This document shows, in pieces, positions 17,554 to 48,419 of a stretch of DNA of 64,000 nt. The notes beneath the pieces were generated by a model, which was given only the letters and a program-made list of their open reading frames with translations, searched no databases and was not told where the DNA came from. The stretch spans positions 62,001 through 126,000 of the forward strand of contig NZ_JBGUAZ010000002.1 in the NCBI RefSeq assembly GCF_041821085.1, read 5' to 3'. How positions within the stretch are numbered: the first letter of the stretch is position 1; each line of letters opens with the position of its first letter. This DNA comes from Natrinema sp. HArc-T2. GTDB taxonomy: Archaea > Halobacteriota > Halobacteria > Halobacteriales > Natrialbaceae. Made by a program: the position numbers and the translations under genes.

Positions 17554-17708
17554 TGTGGGCTGGTGGCGCGGGACGGGTAAAGTAGCATCGGCGGACAGTG
17601 AGTATCCGTCACCGGTCAGGCTCGCCGATCGCACACCCCTGTGGCTGGCAGCCACCACCTACGATGCAGACACGAGGCGTTTAACTAACACTACCACCGA
17701 CGGTGGAT

Positions 17709-18893
17709 ATGGTCGACGACCGGTCGCTGCGAGCGCGGCTGCCGGAGAACTGGCGACGTATCCTCACAACGCGGGCAGCCGTAGTGCTCGTCTTGCTCGT
17801 TGCCTTGCTCTCGGTTGCGACTGCCGTCGTCAACATCGGGACCAACGCCGTCGGCGGCCCGCTCGAGGCGTACGTCCCCGACGCCGTCCGAAACGCCGCG
17901 GCCTTCACCGGGGCGCTCACCGGCTTTCTGATGGTCGGCAGCGCGCTGTCGCTTCGGCGCGGGCTCCGCGCCGGCTGGTGGGCGACGCTGCTGTTGCTCC
18001 CGCTGACCGCAGCACAGGGACTGCTCCAGTCGAGTCCCTATTCGTTTCCGCTGGTCGTCCTCTCGGGCGTGTCGATCCCGGTCCTCCTGCTCACCCGCAA
18101 GCGGTTCGACAACTCGCTCTCGCTGTCGACGACCCAGATCGCAGCCGGTGCCGCACTGGTCGGGGTCCAGGTGTACGGAACCATCGGCGGCTACACCCTC
18201 CGGGAGGACTTCGACGGCATCAGCACCATCCTCGACGCGTTTTATTTCACGTTGATCACCTCGAGCACGGTCGGGTACGGCGACGTGACGCCGAATCCGG
18301 CGTCGGTGCAGGCAATGTTGTTTACCATGTCCGTGCTCATCCTCGGCGTCGCGAGTTTCGGTATCGCCATCGGGGCGCTCGTCGGCCCCCTGATCCAAGA
18401 TCGTATCTCGAGAACACTCGGAAAGATGACCGACTCACAGCTTCAACTCCTCGACGAGCACCTCCTCGTGCTCGGCTACGGCGAACTGACTGAACCGATC
18501 GTCGACGAACTCGCAGACACCGGCCATGAGTTCGTCGTCGTCACCAACGACCAGGAGGCCGCAACGGCACTCACGAACCGAGACATGCCGGTCGTCACCG
18601 GCGATCCGAGTGATGAGGACCCGCTTCAGCGCGCGAAGATCGATCGTGCAGCCGCGGTCCTCGTCGCCACGAACCACGACGCCGAGGACGCACTGACCGT
18701 TCTTACTGCTCGCCAACTCGCTCCCGGGGCACGGATCGTCGCCGCGGCGACCGACCGCGAGAACGTCAAGAAACTCGAGCGCGCCGGCGCAGACGCTGTG
18801 ATCAGCCCGGCACAACTGGGCGGCCATCTGCTCGTGCGATCTGCACTCGGCAGTGACGAAAGCGGTCTGATCGACCGGATCCTCGAGAGGTGA
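17709..18893 (+). CDS. Potassium channel with cytoplasmic RCK (TrkA-N/TrkA-C) domain
   Basis: 394 residues from ATG 17709 (a GTG two codons earlier is possible). Several N-terminal membrane helices lead to a pore with the canonical filter ITSSTVGYGDVTPNP near residue 193 and the inner helix LFTMSVLILGVASFGIAIGA. A TrkA-N Rossmann domain follows (LLVLGYGELTEPIVDELAD, VVTNDQEA, VVTGDPSDEDPLQRA), ending at a hydrophobic C-terminus. It should conduct K+ across the cytoplasmic membrane under NAD(H) or nucleotide control. It is divergent from the TrkA-C pair with about 155 bp between the starts. Confidence 0.93.
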   Translation: MVDDRSLRARLPENWRRILTTRAAVVLVLLVALLSVATAVVNIGTNAVGGPLEAYVPDAVRNAAAFTGALTGFLMVGSALSLRRGLRAGWWATLLLLPLTAAQGLLQSSPYSFPLVVLSGVSIPVLLLTRKRFDNSLSLSTTQIAAGAALVGVQVYGTIGGYTLREDFDGISTILDAFYFTLITSSTVGYGDVTPNPASVQAMLFTMSVLILGVASFGIAIGALVGPLIQDRISRTLGKMTDSQLQLLDEHLLVLGYGELTEPIVDELADTGHEFVVVTNDQEAATALTNRDMPVVTGDPSDEDPLQRAKIDRAAAVLVATNHDAEDALTVLTARQLAPGARIVAAATDRENVKKLERAGADAVISPAQLGGHLLVRSALGSDESGLIDRILER

Positions 18894-18979
18894 TCACAGA
18901 CGACGGTGAGGGGTTCAGAGTTCCGTTCCCAGACCGTCGCTCTGCACTCCTGATTCGATAAGTACAGCAACCTCTTTTA

Positions 18980-19080
18980 CCGGGGGCATCGACGAGCGTC
19001 GAGGACGCTCGCCTCAACCCCCGGCAAAACCCGTTGATGCCAAAAAGCCGGCGGAGCGGGGTGAAACCCCGCGACGCCGG
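18980..19080 (+). ncRNA. Candidate structured RNA or paired hairpins
   Basis: Hairpin one: outer CCGGGGG (18980-18986) pairs with CCCCCGG (19018-19024), and inner CGAGCGTC (18993-19000) pairs with GACGCTCG across a GAG loop. Hairpin two: CCGGCG-GA-GCGGGGT, loop GAA, ACCCCGC-GA-CGCCGG (19048-19080), whose tandem G-A mismatches are symmetric. GGCATCGACG (18985) can also pair with CGTTGATGCC (19032), an alternative fold. Strand and transcription are unproven; it could equally be a DNA hairpin near the origin. Confidence 0.35.
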
Positions 19081-19239
19081 GTAACCGCTCGCTCTGCTCG
19101 CGGATGCTGGCTCGCTACCGCGGCGTTCCAGTCGCACACCTACGCATCTTCTAGTTCACTGTGAGATTATACTCACCCATGAACAGTACTTGTGAAATCC
19201 ATCTCTGTTATCCTCGTCACTGGTAGCGCGAGCCAGCCA

Positions 19240-19257
19240 CCCCTCGCACCGAGTGAG
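19240..19257 (-). repeat. ORB-like box, left of orc1/cdc6
   Basis: CCCCTCGCACCGAGTGAG, one mismatch from the three exact copies at 20735, 20975 and 21031. In minus orientation it reads CTCACTCGGTGCGAGGGG. It lies about 140 bp beyond the 3' end of the orc1/cdc6 gene. Confidence 0.7.
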
Positions 19258-19398
19258 TGAGGCGGGCTGCTGCCCCGAGTGACCGGTGCACTCGCAGGAC
19301 GGTCGCAGGTGACTGGCACTGACTGGCGGTAATCCGTCCGAGACGCTGGTTCTGTGGCTGTGGCTCCAGCAAAGGACCACTCACACTTCAGTGGAGTA

Positions 19399-20604
19399 TC
19401 AAGGATCGCGATCAGCGTTGAGGGCATTGAACACGATATCCGGATCACGCATCAGCCGATGAACGAGATAGCTCCCCTCACGATCCCCTCCTCCGGTATG
19501 CTCGCTTTCAGTAATCCCGAGGAACGCTTGTTCTTTGAGGAGCCGTCTGACTCGATCATGTGACAGGGGGTCCGATCCCTCCTGGGTCGCGATCGTCGTG
19601 TAGAGATCGTATATTTTCGCCGTCCGGAACTGTTTTTTCTCCTCTGACGCGGTCAGTGCAGCAAGCGCTCGTAAGATGAACTTCACGTGTGGTGTCTGTC
19701 CACTCACGAGGCGATGGAATCGGTTGACTTCTGCCTGGGTGATGGCTTCATCGACGTGCGCTTCAGTTACCTGTCCGTCGCCGTTCTTCTCCGCGAGACG
19801 GCCTGCTTCGTAGAACGTCTCGACGGCTTTGCGTGCATCACCGTGTTCTCGAGCAGCAAGCGCTGCCGTCTTCGGAATGACTTCGTCCGACAGCACACCC
19901 GGTTTGAACGCGTCTTTCCGGTTTTCAAGGATCGCGCGTAATTGTGTTGCACCGTATGGATCGAACACGAGCTCGTTATCCTGCAAACTCGAATCCACGC
20001 GCTCGTTCAACCGTTCTCGATACTCTATCTTATTACTGATACAGATAACACCGATGAACGTGTTTGATTTCCCGCTCTCACGCGCTCTCGACAGGCTCCG
20101 AAGCAGGTCTTCGTTCTCGAGCTTATCGATTTCGTCGAGGATGACCACGAGTGAGTCGACGTCGTACTCAGAAAGGAGGTCCCATGTGATGTCACGATAA
20201 TCCACGGCACTCAATCCCGTTTGCGGGATAGACGCATCCGCGTCGAGATTCTCGTTCAGTTCCCGGGCCAGTTCACGGCTTGCTTGCGTTTCTGTCTGAT
20301 AATCCGAGCAATCGACATATGCGTATTTAAGCGCGGCTCCGTTGGTAGCGGCTCGTCTGGACGCTTGACGCGTGACACATCTCGAGACGAGCGATTTACC
20401 GGTCCCTGTTTTCCCGTAGATGATCGTCGTTTCTGGCGGCCCACCTTCAGTTGCAGCAGCGAGCGCACTCCCAACCGATCGGATTTCCTCGTCACGACCG
20501 ACAACGCGGTCAAGCTCAGGAACATGACCGACTCGAACGAGCTCCCGGTTTGCGAAAATATCACCCGTATCGAATATGTCGGTCAATTTCCCATCCTCTG
20601 CCAT
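19399..20604 (-). CDS. orc: Orc1/Cdc6 family replication initiator
   Basis: 401 residues from ATG 20604 (MAEDGKLTDIFDTGDIFANR). AAA+ domain: Walker A IIYGKTGTGKSLVSR near residue 63, Walker B LVVILDEIDKLENED near 151, sensor-like FIGVICISNK near 183. A C-terminal winged helix follows (TAKIYDLYTTIATQEGSDPL, RRLLKEQAFLGI). Orc1/Cdc6 proteins bind origin recognition boxes and load the MCM helicase. Base composition is visibly lower in G+C than the flanking genes, suggesting acquisition from another replicon. Identical ORB-like boxes occur on its upstream side and a near copy on its downstream side, so it most likely serves the adjacent origin. Which of the many haloarchaeal Orc types it is cannot be told. 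Confidence 0.95.
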   Translation of the reverse strand: MAEDGKLTDIFDTGDIFANRELVRVGHVPELDRVVGRDEEIRSVGSALAAATEGGPPETTIIYGKTGTGKSLVSRCVTRQASRRAATNGAALKYAYVDCSDYQTETQASRELARELNENLDADASIPQTGLSAVDYRDITWDLLSEYDVDSLVVILDEIDKLENEDLLRSLSRARESGKSNTFIGVICISNKIEYRERLNERVDSSLQDNELVFDPYGATQLRAILENRKDAFKPGVLSDEVIPKTAALAAREHGDARKAVETFYEAGRLAEKNGDGQVTEAHVDEAITQAEVNRFHRLVSGQTPHVKFILRALAALTASEEKKQFRTAKIYDLYTTIATQEGSDPLSHDRVRRLLKEQAFLGITESEHTGGGDREGSYLVHRLMRDPDIVFNALNADRDP

Positions 20605-20734
20605 GAGCCGATATTACGTTCCAGGGAATTAAACGCACCGAACCAGACGACGACTGAGAGTCGAAATTCGAGTGCGAGAGATCCTATTGGGGGAGTACAA
20701 CATTCCTTAATAAGGATAGCCGAGAGCAGTCCCA

Positions 20735-20752
20735 CCCCTCGTACCGAGTGAG
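20735..20752 (-). repeat. ORB-like box 1
   Basis: CCCCTCGTACCGAGTGAG, the exact reverse complement of the two boxes to the right. It sits between the orc1/cdc6 start and the AT-rich segment. The G-tract next to a semi-palindromic core matches the general form of archaeal origin recognition boxes. Confidence 0.75.
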
Positions 20753-20974
20753 CTACGGAACTACTTCGTGTCTAATTCATACGTCGTATATAAACACTCC
20801 GTAAATCGGGAGATCATATTCCAAAAAGCTGCTACCGTACTTCACTAACCAACAGTAATATCGAAAGGCATAAGAATTAATTAATAGGTTCGTATGCTCT
20901 TCGCGGGTACAGAACCGCTCTGCAGGACTCTGGTGGTCGTTCCACGGAAAGCCACGGTTCTGTTTTGAGCAGTC

Positions 20975-20992
20975 CTCACTCGGTACGAGGGG
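20975..20992 (+). repeat. ORB-like box 2
   Basis: CTCACTCGGTACGAGGGG, followed by further G residues (GGGAGGG), giving the long G-string usual for haloarchaeal ORBs. Confidence 0.75.
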
Positions 20993-21030
20993 GGAGGGAG
21001 TGTCCAGAGAGAATAGTATCACGACACACA

Positions 21031-21048
21031 CTCACTCGGTACGAGGGG
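21031..21048 (+). repeat. ORB-like box 3
   Basis: CTCACTCGGTACGAGGGG, identical to box 2 and starting 56 bp after it, in the same orientation. It is followed by TC. Confidence 0.75.
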
Positions 21049-21145
21049 TCACAGCAATGACTGTCGATCAGACAGCTGCGGCACAGAACGCCCACCATTT
21101 CTGTCACTACAAGTCGTTCCAGAACTTTACTCGAGTTTTTGCTCC

Positions 21146-21166
21146 GGGCGCGACGGCGTCGCGCCC
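21146..21166. terminator. Strong hairpin at the right edge of the origin
   Basis: GGGCGCGAC, loop GGC, GTCGCGCCC: a perfect 9-bp stem with a T-run (GAGTTTTT) on its left side. It lies 40 bp past the end of the HPP/Usp gene (minus strand). It may separate that transcript from the origin, or be a DNA structure of the origin. Confidence 0.4.
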
Positions 21167-21205
21167 ACAGCGAAAGCGGTCGATCGGCAGGTACAACCGG
21201 CAGGA

Positions 21206-22615
21206 TCAGCGATGCCGTCCCCGGTGGACGATCGCCACGTCAGCCTCGAGGTCGCTGAGTTTGCGAAACGTCGGTGGCGAGACGAACCGCGAGGCGGCAG
21301 ACCGGTCGGTACTCGAGCCGACGAAGCAGACGTCGTACCGGGGTGTAACGCGGGAGAGATAGATCTCGACCGACGCGGTCACGACGTGCGTTTCGAATCG
21401 GCCCGAGAACGCGTCGACGAGATCGGCGAGCGTGCCCTCGGCGGATCGACGATCCGATTCGCTGTCGATACAGGTGCTGACGGTCACCGGTCGACCGGAT
21501 TCCGTGACGCGGATCGCGAAGTCGACCATCGCGCGAGCGGTGTCGCCGGCACCCCGAACCGCGACCAAGCTACTTCGCCAGCGTCGCCGGCGAGTGCCGT
21601 TCGACCGGAACGCGATGACGTCGATCTCGCTGTCGAACAAGCCCTTGAGAAACGACGAGAGCCCGCCGCTCTCGTGTTCGGCATACGGCGCGACGACGAG
21701 ATCACAGTTTTGCTGGCGGGCGGTCCGGAGGACGAGACCCGCGGACTGGTCGGGTGCGGCTGCGACGACCGCCTCACAGGAGACGTCGTAGGCAGTCTCG
21801 AGATCGGAAGACAGCGACTCGAGTTGGCGGGCTACGTCCCCGGCTGCGCGTTCGACCGGCGTCGACTCGCCGTGGCCGTCGTCACGCTGCTCGGCGTCGG
21901 TTTCGTCGACGACGTCGAAAAGCACGATCTTGCCGGCGTCGTGGGCTCCGGCGACCGCCGCGGCAAAGCGGGCGACGGTCTCGTCGGCATCACCCATCGG
22001 AACGAGCACGTGATCGTCGCCGGTGGTCGTCCCGTAGAGATAGCGAGCGCGCTGCTGGTAGAAGTGTCGCCGCCAGACCACGAACGAGACCGCGACGAAC
22101 GTACTCGAGACGACGATTCCGAGGACGTACACCAACTGCGCGCTGCCGGTCAAGAGGACGAGGAGCGCAGTCGAGAACGCTGCTGGCTCCTCGAGATCGA
22201 GCGCCCACGTGCAGACGCCGGTAAAGAACACGCTCAGCGCAGCACCCGAGGCGCTGACGGTTCCCCCGTCGAACCCGGCGGCTGACACCAGTGCGAGTGC
22301 AAGCCAGCCACAGAGCGCACCGGCGGTCATCCCGCCGATGAATTTCGACGGCGTGGCGTAGGCCCCCTCGGGATCGGCAAACAGCGTGTACGTCCCCGAG
22401 GCAAGCGGTGGGAACAGTAGGAACGAGACCGCTGCAGTCGCGTTCGACAGCCACGTCACCGCTGCGATCAACAGCGGGACGAACACCAGCACCGAGAGAT
22501 GTAAGAGGTTCCCCGTGCGCTCGACCCAACGCAAGAAGGCGTCGAGTTCGCGTCGCTCGAGCCGGCGCAGTCGTCTCACGAGCGCCCACAGCCACGCTCG
22601 AACGCCCTCGCGCAT
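21206..22615 (-). CDS. HPP-type membrane domain fused to universal stress protein domains
   Basis: 469 residues. The N-terminal third is an HPP-family membrane domain (LHLSVLVFVPLLIAAVTWLS, then the HPP-like LLFPPLASGTYTLFADP and SKFIGGMTAGALCGWLALAL). The rest is soluble with two Usp-like regions (DHVLVPMGDADETVARFAA; SSLVAVRGAGDTARAMVDFA). The HPP family includes chloroplast and cyanobacterial nitrite transporters; Usp domains bind nucleotides. Transport of an anion regulated by the Usp part is plausible but unproven. It points toward the origin region; downstream of it is only the origin. Confidence 0.85.
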   Translation of the reverse strand: MREGVRAWLWALVRRLRRLERRELDAFLRWVERTGNLLHLSVLVFVPLLIAAVTWLSNATAAVSFLLFPPLASGTYTLFADPEGAYATPSKFIGGMTAGALCGWLALALVSAAGFDGGTVSASGAALSVFFTGVCTWALDLEEPAAFSTALLVLLTGSAQLVYVLGIVVSSTFVAVSFVVWRRHFYQQRARYLYGTTTGDDHVLVPMGDADETVARFAAAVAGAHDAGKIVLFDVVDETDAEQRDDGHGESTPVERAAGDVARQLESLSSDLETAYDVSCEAVVAAAPDQSAGLVLRTARQQNCDLVVAPYAEHESGGLSSFLKGLFDSEIDVIAFRSNGTRRRRWRSSLVAVRGAGDTARAMVDFAIRVTESGRPVTVSTCIDSESDRRSAEGTLADLVDAFSGRFETHVVTASVEIYLSRVTPRYDVCFVGSSTDRSAASRFVSPPTFRKLSDLEADVAIVHRGRHR

Positions 22616-46398: not shown

Positions 46399-47628
46399 CT
46401 AACTCGGTCCTCGTTCGATAGGTGTCTCCCAGAGCAAGATTCCTGTAGAACTAATGATGAGGATGACACCAGCCACAGCGAGAGCGAACAATGGAGTGAC
46501 GATGTCGGAGATGATGCCACTCCCGAGTTGGAAGGGGACAACTGCGAGTCCGCTGACCATCGCCATGGCGCTGAGAACAGTCGCACGTCCCATCGTCTCA
46601 ATACGATCGTTGATATACTGGCTAGCGAACGACCGCGTCACATCAGAAAGCCCGCGAACCAGCAGGAACGTCGGCAAGGCAAGAGCCGGGACGAAATACA
46701 TCCCCACCAGTGCCCCGCCGACGACGAAGGGCAGCCCCAGAAACCACATTCGCAGTCCGAGACGGTCGCGAATCGCACCAGTGTAGTAGCTCAATCCTGC
46801 GCCGAAGAGACTATACGCCGCGTAGAACCATCCGAGCAGTGATTTAACCTGCGTCTGCGACACACCAAAGTCGAGAACGACTGTCTCGAAAATCGGTTGG
46901 AGAAACACGAACACGAGGTACGTCACCGCCGCATAGAGAACGTAATAATACAGAACGAACGCCCGTATGTTACGCTGTGAGACCGTCCGACGGATCATCG
47001 AGAGTGTCCGCCGAAAACTCAGTCCCGTGGTGTCGGCTTGTTCATACGTTTCAGGTTCGTCGATCGTCAGGAGGACGAACACGCCGATTGCCGTCACTGT
47101 GGCAGCCACGAACCACGGATACGACAGGTCAATACTCCCGAGATAGCCACCGATGATCGCCGCACCTGCGCCAATCGCCAGTGAAACGGACTCTCCCCGC
47201 CCACGGACGTGCGCAAACTCGTCTTCCGAGAGGTCATCGGTGAGCGTATCGTACAGCCAGGCATCTTCGCTTCCCGAGCGGAAGTTGTAACCTGTCGACC
47301 AGCACACGTACAGGGCCGTGAGTGCCCAGAAGGAACTAGATAGCCCGATTCCGAGCAGTGTGAGTGAGATGAGGACGGTTCCAATGAGGAGACTGTTGCG
47401 CCGACCAACACGGTCACCGATATAGCCTGTCGGAATCTCTCCCAGCAGCGTCGTCAGATTGTATACCGCTTCGAGGATGGCGATCTGTGTAAAGGTGAGC
47501 CCTTGGGCGAGAAAGAAGAGATACATAATTGGCCGGTAAAACTCGACCGCTTTTGTCGATTTGTAGAGATAATATTTCAGGATGCTCGGAGAGGGAAGAG
47601 CAGAAGAATTCCGGGACGGAACAGCCAT
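46399..47628 (-). CDS. MFS transporter
   Basis: 409 residues with about twelve membrane helices, a standard major facilitator length. Features include LLGEIPTGYIGDRVGRRNSL near residue 60 (the loop 2-3 A motif G-x-x-x-D-R-x-G-R-R) and an acidic-lined YNFRSGSEDAWLYDTLTDDL. Base composition is lower in G+C than neighbouring genes, and the segment is flanked by gene remnants, so recent transfer is likely. The substrate is unknown; drug or metabolite efflux is the usual role. Short tracts of Phe, Tyr and Leu codons differ from the surrounding style. Confidence 0.85.
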   Translation of the reverse strand: MAVPSRNSSALPSPSILKYYLYKSTKAVEFYRPIMYLFFLAQGLTFTQIAILEAVYNLTTLLGEIPTGYIGDRVGRRNSLLIGTVLISLTLLGIGLSSSFWALTALYVCWSTGYNFRSGSEDAWLYDTLTDDLSEDEFAHVRGRGESVSLAIGAGAAIIGGYLGSIDLSYPWFVAATVTAIGVFVLLTIDEPETYEQADTTGLSFRRTLSMIRRTVSQRNIRAFVLYYYVLYAAVTYLVFVFLQPIFETVVLDFGVSQTQVKSLLGWFYAAYSLFGAGLSYYTGAIRDRLGLRMWFLGLPFVVGGALVGMYFVPALALPTFLLVRGLSDVTRSFASQYINDRIETMGRATVLSAMAMVSGLAVVPFQLGSGIISDIVTPLFALAVAGVILIISSTGILLWETPIERGPS

Positions 47629-47720
47629 ATCGGATATGGATACCCCTGAAAAATGGTTGTTGTGTTATGATCAGCCTGGTGTTTCGTAATACTGCTGGAC
47701 CGAACAGGAAGAGCTGTTCG

Positions 47721-48419
47721 TCAGTGTCCAAGAGTGAGAGTCGATTTGAAGCAGTTCCCGCTTACTAAGCGGTCCAAACTACGCCTAATTCTTTTTAAAT
47801 AGTCATTCTTGTCCGCTACATACTCGAGTTCCATTGGAACGTTTTCACGGAGATGTTTGGTAATAGTGACGTCGTTAGCGGACTTCAATCGATTCAGGAT
47901 TGAGTGAGGCATCAAGAACTGTCGAGAACTCGTGTAGCTCATCGAAGTAGCGACTGTTGATGCCGACCGCGCGCGCCGCACGTTGATCAACGATTGATAG
48001 CGCTCGAATTCGATGTTCGATCCTTGGACGTGTAGATTCACACCTTCCTCGAGATCGTCGGGTACGGAGATCGTGCTACCGCCCTTGCTCCGCATTCCCT
48101 GCCAGCGCGGCGCGATGTGAGTGCGGAACGACCGTTCACCGACGATATCGTCACCACTCTCTACGTTGAGTTCGAATTCGCGCCTCTCTGCGAGACGGAA
48201 CTCGGTTCCAGTCGGGAGCTGGTCTCCCGGATGCTCGAGACCGGAGTCTCGATAGGACAGCGTCACCTGCCACGGCTCGCCCTTGAATGCGAACTCGGCG
48301 TGCTGACTTCCGTCACCGTCCTTGATCCGACGGTCGCACGCGAAGAACGGATCGAGACCGTGCTCTGCGAAGAGGAAGTGAGCCGCGAACTCGTGGGGCG
48401 CGGTCTCGATCAGTTGCAC
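47721..48419 (-). pseudogene. Frameshifted DUF7845-like gene (degraded provirus/plasmid gene)
   Basis: Open frame from a GTG at 48419: MQLIETAPHEFAAHFLFAEH then DDLEEGVNLHVQGSNIEFER, a conserved start of a haloarchaeal element-borne family (DUF7845-like). After FERYQSLINV the reading changes to low-likeness sequence, whereas the next frame reads AARAVGINSRYFDELHEFST and continues the expected family sequence. The shift occurs at a GC-repeat tract near 47966-47977. Both frames later stop early. A gene that should be longer is thus broken by a slippage mutation. Confidence 0.6.

Follow-up and report, generated by a model that had tools for sequence, protein, structure and literature searches.

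The orc1/cdc6 gene of Natrinema sp. HArc-T2 described here is accompanied by four copies of an 18-bp box and lies between two conserved genes, raising the questions of whether it marks an origin of replication and how such a locus came to stand in this chromosome. We addressed these questions in a 64,000-nucleotide stretch of the genome (hereafter, the window, to which unlabelled coordinates refer; Table 1), in the rest of the genome, and in related haloarchaeal genomes. We consider it highly likely that the locus is an accessory chromosomal orc/cdc6-linked origin that the ancestor of the Natrinema hispanicum group acquired as a compact module.

Table 1 Coordinates of the predicted origin module, its boxes and its flanking genes in the window
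Feature	Position	Strand	Remarks
TrkA_N/ion-channel protein, flanking gene	17703-18893	+	
Acquired module: orc, predicted origin, downstream box	18894-21206	.	flanking genes conserved and convergent, their 3′ ends facing the module
Downstream box, 3′ of orc gene	19240-19257	- (orientation as gene)	1 mismatch
orc1/cdc6 initiator gene, 401 aa	19399-20604	-	TIGR02928, 7.8e-110
Degraded intragenic ORB, Walker A codons (GKSLVSRCV)	20372-20395	-	window score 5.2 bits
TATA-like TTTAATT	20627-20633	-	22 nt before orc start codon
ORB, orc side of AT-rich core	20735-20752	-	exact 18-mer; conserved island among carriers
AT-rich core, predicted duplex-unwinding element	20751-20900	.	37.3% GC, lowest 150-bp stretch of window
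ORB, far side of AT-rich core	20975-20992	+	exact 18-mer; conserved island among carriers
Outermost ORB	21031-21048	+	exact 18-mer; conserved island among carriers
TM_HPP protein, flanking gene	21206-22615	-	

The encoded protein scores 367 bits against the TIGR02928 model (curated cut-off, 181), which places it in the orc1/cdc6 family. Its Pfam domains are AAA_16 (AAA+ ATPase), Cdc6_lid and Cdc6_C (C-terminal winged helix), its Walker A motif can be read directly in the sequence as GKTGTGKS, and the closest solved structures, 2v1u and 2qby, are archaeal Cdc6/Orc1 proteins. The lower G+C content that a preliminary description of this DNA had ascribed to the gene is borne out: orc has 54.6% and the whole insertion (18894-21205) 55.0%, compared with 63.4% for the window. 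A second low-GC stretch (52-54% over 1.2 kb) at 46399-48419 lies around a frame resembling a membrane transporter and the 232-aa frame next to it. Upstream of orc, the block GGTTCGGTGCGTTTAAT is conserved among the five Natrinema genomes that carry the module (hereafter, carriers), and its TTTAATT points to a promoter of the leaderless type.

With up to three mismatches allowed, the box pattern CTCACTCGGTACGAGGGG has four sites within the 64-kb window, where 0.07 would be expected by chance, and no shuffle reached four. Three of these copies beside orc1/cdc6 are exact and one has a single mismatch, as first described. A genome search for further copies, which the preliminary description had proposed, returned these four alone with 0-2 mismatches in the 3.73-Mb genome, so the many copies away from orc genes that it had named as counting against an origin are absent. 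Sites with three mismatches number seven elsewhere in the genome, compared with three for a reversed-pattern control, and one of the seven (C1:359327) adjoins another orc gene (C1:359489-360658). The one-mismatch box downstream of orc is also present, likewise 3′ of the gene, in all four of the other carriers and is a candidate site for initiator titration or regulation.

In the published plan of haloarchaeal origins, an AT-rich element by orc/cdc6 is flanked by inverted ORBs that have G-strings, and the gene itself sometimes has boxes on either side. The earlier suggestion that the locus follows this plan agrees with what we found. The core origin spans 20735-21048, where one box is opposed to two inverted boxes (20735 on the minus strand versus 20975 and 21031 on the plus strand) across a 37%-GC segment, and the G-strings of the boxes flanking the core all point outward. 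The marks of a haloarchaeal orc/cdc6-adjacent origin are thus present in the repeated box with a G-string beside the gene, in the inverted boxes around a predicted unwinding segment, and in a box class that is conserved with its Orc family in other species. The 100-bp stretch at 20787 is the second least stable in the window. When the carriers are aligned, most of the intergenic spacer diverges, whereas the boxes, the promoter block and GTTTATATA form islands of conservation. The preliminary description had envisaged two boxes facing two; the inversion and the AT-rich core stand, but the core is one box against two, because the box at 19240 lies 3′ of the gene. The origin also contains a palindrome, TTCCACGGAAA, at 20940-20950, which resembles the core of the canonical ORB. 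It occurs in the window and in Natrinema hispanicum DSM 18328, and we rejected it as a canonical ORB core because it is not common to the wider family.

The box follows the ORB frame customary in haloarchaea, with TTCAC, five variable bases, AC and GAGGGG (the G-string). The genome holds about a dozen orc1/cdc6 genes (loci L033-L044), and we searched for flanking repeats at ten others. Most of the examined genes have repeats of their own, many ending G-rich, among them TTCACTCTGAACGAGGGG at C1:359489, TTTCACCGGAAAC at C3, TTACAAACGCGAGGGGGG at C1:819877, and TAACAGCGGAAGCAGTGGGGTGGGG on C12, which is near to a published ORB. The box of an Orc 51% identical to that of the window is TTCACTCTGGACGAGGGG. 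At loci L063-L070, which represent an Orc family ~51% identical with several members on plasmids, the box is TTTCACTCTGGACGAGGGGTGTG, present in many direct upstream copies, and it reads as a sister class to the window's box. Set in register, the closest repeats have TTCAC, five variable bases, AC and the G-string in common at the sites listed, so the window's box can be read as an Orc-specific version of the ordinary ORB, the usual frame with a centre specific to its own Orc. The preliminary description had proposed a less-described box class. The letters do differ from the TTCCA...GAAAC form, but the frame is normal, and Orc-specific ORBs, with one initiator per box class under a linkage-specificity model, are published, as the main text of PMC3528665 describes. 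A text search with the box sequence gave no haloarchaeal paper among the matches listed.

Orthologs of this Orc have a sporadic distribution over many haloarchaeal genera, including Haloarcula, Halosimplex, Halorubrum, Haloferax, Halobellus, Halocatena and Natronolimnohabitans, with ~58-77% identity beyond the Natrinema group, and they are also borne on plasmids such as pHTUR04 of Haloterrigena turkmenica (73.7% identity). The flanks of the orthologs have the same box class, TTCACTCG[G/T]T[A/G][C/T]GAGGTGTG. We scanned the ortholog loci with a motif built on intergenic sites only; 193 box sites with the consensus TTCACTCGGTACGAGGTGTGTCTC were found over 35 non-redundant loci, with upstream boxes in both orientations at ~30 of the 35. 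Conservation in dozens of genomes thus lends good support to the predicted Orc-linked origin with its Orc-specific box, as first proposed. In the protein tree, the Natrinema group forms a well supported clade set among sequences from several other families. As for a viral source, phage records contained no Orc relative, and none of the exact peptide patterns of the Orc query was found in viral contigs.

The channel gene that flanks the module is present in all 29 Natrinema genomes, while an ortholog of orc at high identity is found in five of them, at the same site each time. This distribution led us to reject the canonical oriC1, with its TTCCA...GAAAC ORB and universal archaeal Orc; across the class, a match to the window's Orc at E <= 1e-135 is present in 48 of 391 genomes, not universally as for oriC1. 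The module is absent from the other 24 Natrinema genomes, and in 23 of these the two flanking genes are neighbours. Aligned gaps between them are at most 42 bp in 15 genomes and 321-428 bp in eight, the longer gaps having no similarity to the module, and no ORB was found in any of the 24 non-carrier loci. The simplest reading is that the module was inserted once, in an ancestor shared by the five carriers. In Natrinema limicola, ~2 kb of extra DNA lies between the module (orc) and the channel gene, and the intergenic site has therefore taken more than one insertion.

The 2.3-kb insert of the window holds only orc, the boxes and two dispersed repeats, with no partition, integrase or other plasmid genes of the kind that would mark an integrated plasmid. 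One repeat (19258-19345) adjoins the downstream box and has ~25 further copies in the genome at 75-87% identity, which include the hairpin-like CCGGTGCACC...GGTTGCACCGGC; it has no Rfam match, and Rfam gave nothing in the region. At 18956-19108 there is a ~150-bp MITE-like element with internal inverted repeats and three other genome copies at 77-79% identity. The clean neighbour genes in 23 non-carriers, together with the lack of other replicon genes, argue for an acquired origin-initiator module and not a whole replicon. The captured replicon of the preliminary description is therefore better put as a captured origin-initiator module.

By analogy with known families, the Orc encoded from 20604 to 19399 would bind boxes of its own class that flank the AT-rich segment in opposite orientations; bound Orc, with the G-strings outward, would melt this segment and then load MCM, and the single downstream box may take up Orc or regulate it. 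Such ORB/cdc6 pairs have been published as origins that depend on the adjacent cdc6. Of comparable pairs, some are active, some dormant and others without function, H. volcanii orc4 and H. hispanica oriC3-cdc6D being dormant or inactive examples, and we rate a dormant or weak origin here about as probable as an active one. A decayed or dormant locus, at which the boxes only autoregulate orc and bind surplus Orc while no replication starts in growing cells, has a chance that falls somewhat short of even. Besides the published precedents, it is favoured by the cumulative GC skew, which over 400 kb of the contig does not turn at the locus as it would at an origin (weak evidence where a genome has several origins), and by an IS element that interrupts the AT-rich core in the carrier Haloterrigena sp. 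H1 (L015, 4104-4739; IS-type transposase with a weak DDE_Tnp_IS240 match), which indicates that at least one carrier tolerates interruption of the core. The other four of the five carriers, however, keep the boxes, promoter, reading frame and an uninterrupted core while the spacer diverges, suggesting retained function.

The remaining alternatives appear less probable than dormancy. A larger integrated plasmid that has since shed its other genes, leaving this locus as a remnant, would fit the lower G+C of the insert and the 74% identical Orc on pHTUR04, but the direct adjacency of the flanking genes in 23 non-carriers and the lack of any plasmid gene in the window's insert make it unlikely. 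We hold it improbable that the boxes are operators of an Orc-like transcription factor unconnected with replication: most relatives do have one box 60-90 bp before the orc start, near the promoter region, and many have another within the gene, but the nearest upstream box in the window, at -131, stands off the promoter, and inverted boxes with an AT-rich core and outward G-strings are the published plan of an origin. Very little speaks for the boxes being dispersed intergenic repeats that lie near orc by accident. A dispersed repeat does start directly beside the downstream box, but the genome holds neither the box at any other place nor another copy of the origin region, so that for the three upstream boxes this explanation is refuted.

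Beyond the predicted accessory origin itself, alignment of the orthologs revealed boxes inside the initiator gene. Full-strength ORBs occur within the orc coding sequence of orthologs, always in the same frame and on the same strand, over the codons of the Walker A motif (G K S L V T R C V; typically GGA AAG TCA CTC GTT ACG AGG TGT GTC). Coding matches of at least 20 bits are present in 21 of the 35 non-redundant orthologs, where synonymous shuffling gave a mean of 0.36 and a maximum of 3 in 200 shuffles; the median for intergenic boxes is 31 bits. Scored with the intergenic-only motif, 22 of the 35 genes exceed synonymous-codon shuffles at the Walker A site (p<0.01). A codon test also made this site the most codon-conserved stretch of the gene, but its serine z-scores come out too high because serine has two codon blocks, and we therefore relied on the synonymous-shuffle tests. 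Among genes with the intragenic box, the box codons are 89% identical compared with 40% elsewhere, a descriptive figure for a set chosen for having the box. The genes, being related, are not independent, but the intragenic box is present in several deep clades of the tree. Other orc genes of the HArc-T2 genome have no coding match to their own repeats, and paralog families use other codons at the Walker A site, one of them having TCA CTC GTT in common.

On this evidence we lean towards the view that the P-loop box (TCA CTC GTT ACG AGG TGT GTC) has been kept by synonymous-site selection across several deep clades, that Orc binds its own coding sequence, limiting its expression or being titrated there, and that the box has been lost in the Natrinema lineage, to which the window belongs. 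No description of an intragenic initiator-binding site was found within the part of the literature searched. The intragenic box appears to be new at the family level and is the part that a specialist may not expect.

Among known systems, the haloarchaeal orc/cdc6-adjacent origins of Wu et al. 2012 (PMC3528665) are the general model: as their main text presents them, they share with the locus an orc gene, inverted G-string repeats and an AT-rich segment, as well as a box class linked to the Orc family and a sporadic distribution by transfer. The main texts searched contain neither this Natrinema group member nor the exact box, and the window's module differs from the origins they describe in standing alone between two core genes. 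H. amylolytica and H. argentinensis, both listed for the oriC3-cdc6D of Haloarcula (PMC4441112), have orthologs of the window's Orc, and the two loci may be equivalent, as judged from species distribution and not from the H. hispanica sequence. Variability is common to the two kinds of locus, as is a transposase insertion in a relative, but the H. hispanica origin is reported to be non-functional (PMC4441112). The oriC2-cdc6E of Haloarcula hispanica likewise has boxes on both sides of the initiator gene, and there the downstream cluster controls the origin negatively (PMC3936714). That cluster has 11 boxes compared with one in the window, where titration is a candidate role. We rejected cdc6E as the identity of the family because, instead of 11 boxes in an interval of 722 bp, a single strong box stands immediately 3′ of the gene in the Haloarcula orthologs; the H. 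argentinensis ortholog has two weaker boxes further downstream as well. The oriC4-cdc6H of Haloferax mediterranei is, like the window's module, a recently acquired chromosomal ORB/cdc6 pair (PMC4595724). It is dormant, and its activity was demonstrated once the main origins had been deleted, whereas the window's origin is predicted from sequence.

If the proposed role of the intragenic box is correct, it would constitute a new layer of initiator self-control, written in synonymous codons. The predicted accessory origin suggests that chromosomes can gain origins in the form of bare origin-initiator modules. With 24 Natrinema genomes lacking the module and five carrying it at one place, the genus offers a clean natural experiment, in which presence and absence at a single site allow a direct comparison of what an added origin does to an archaeal chromosome.
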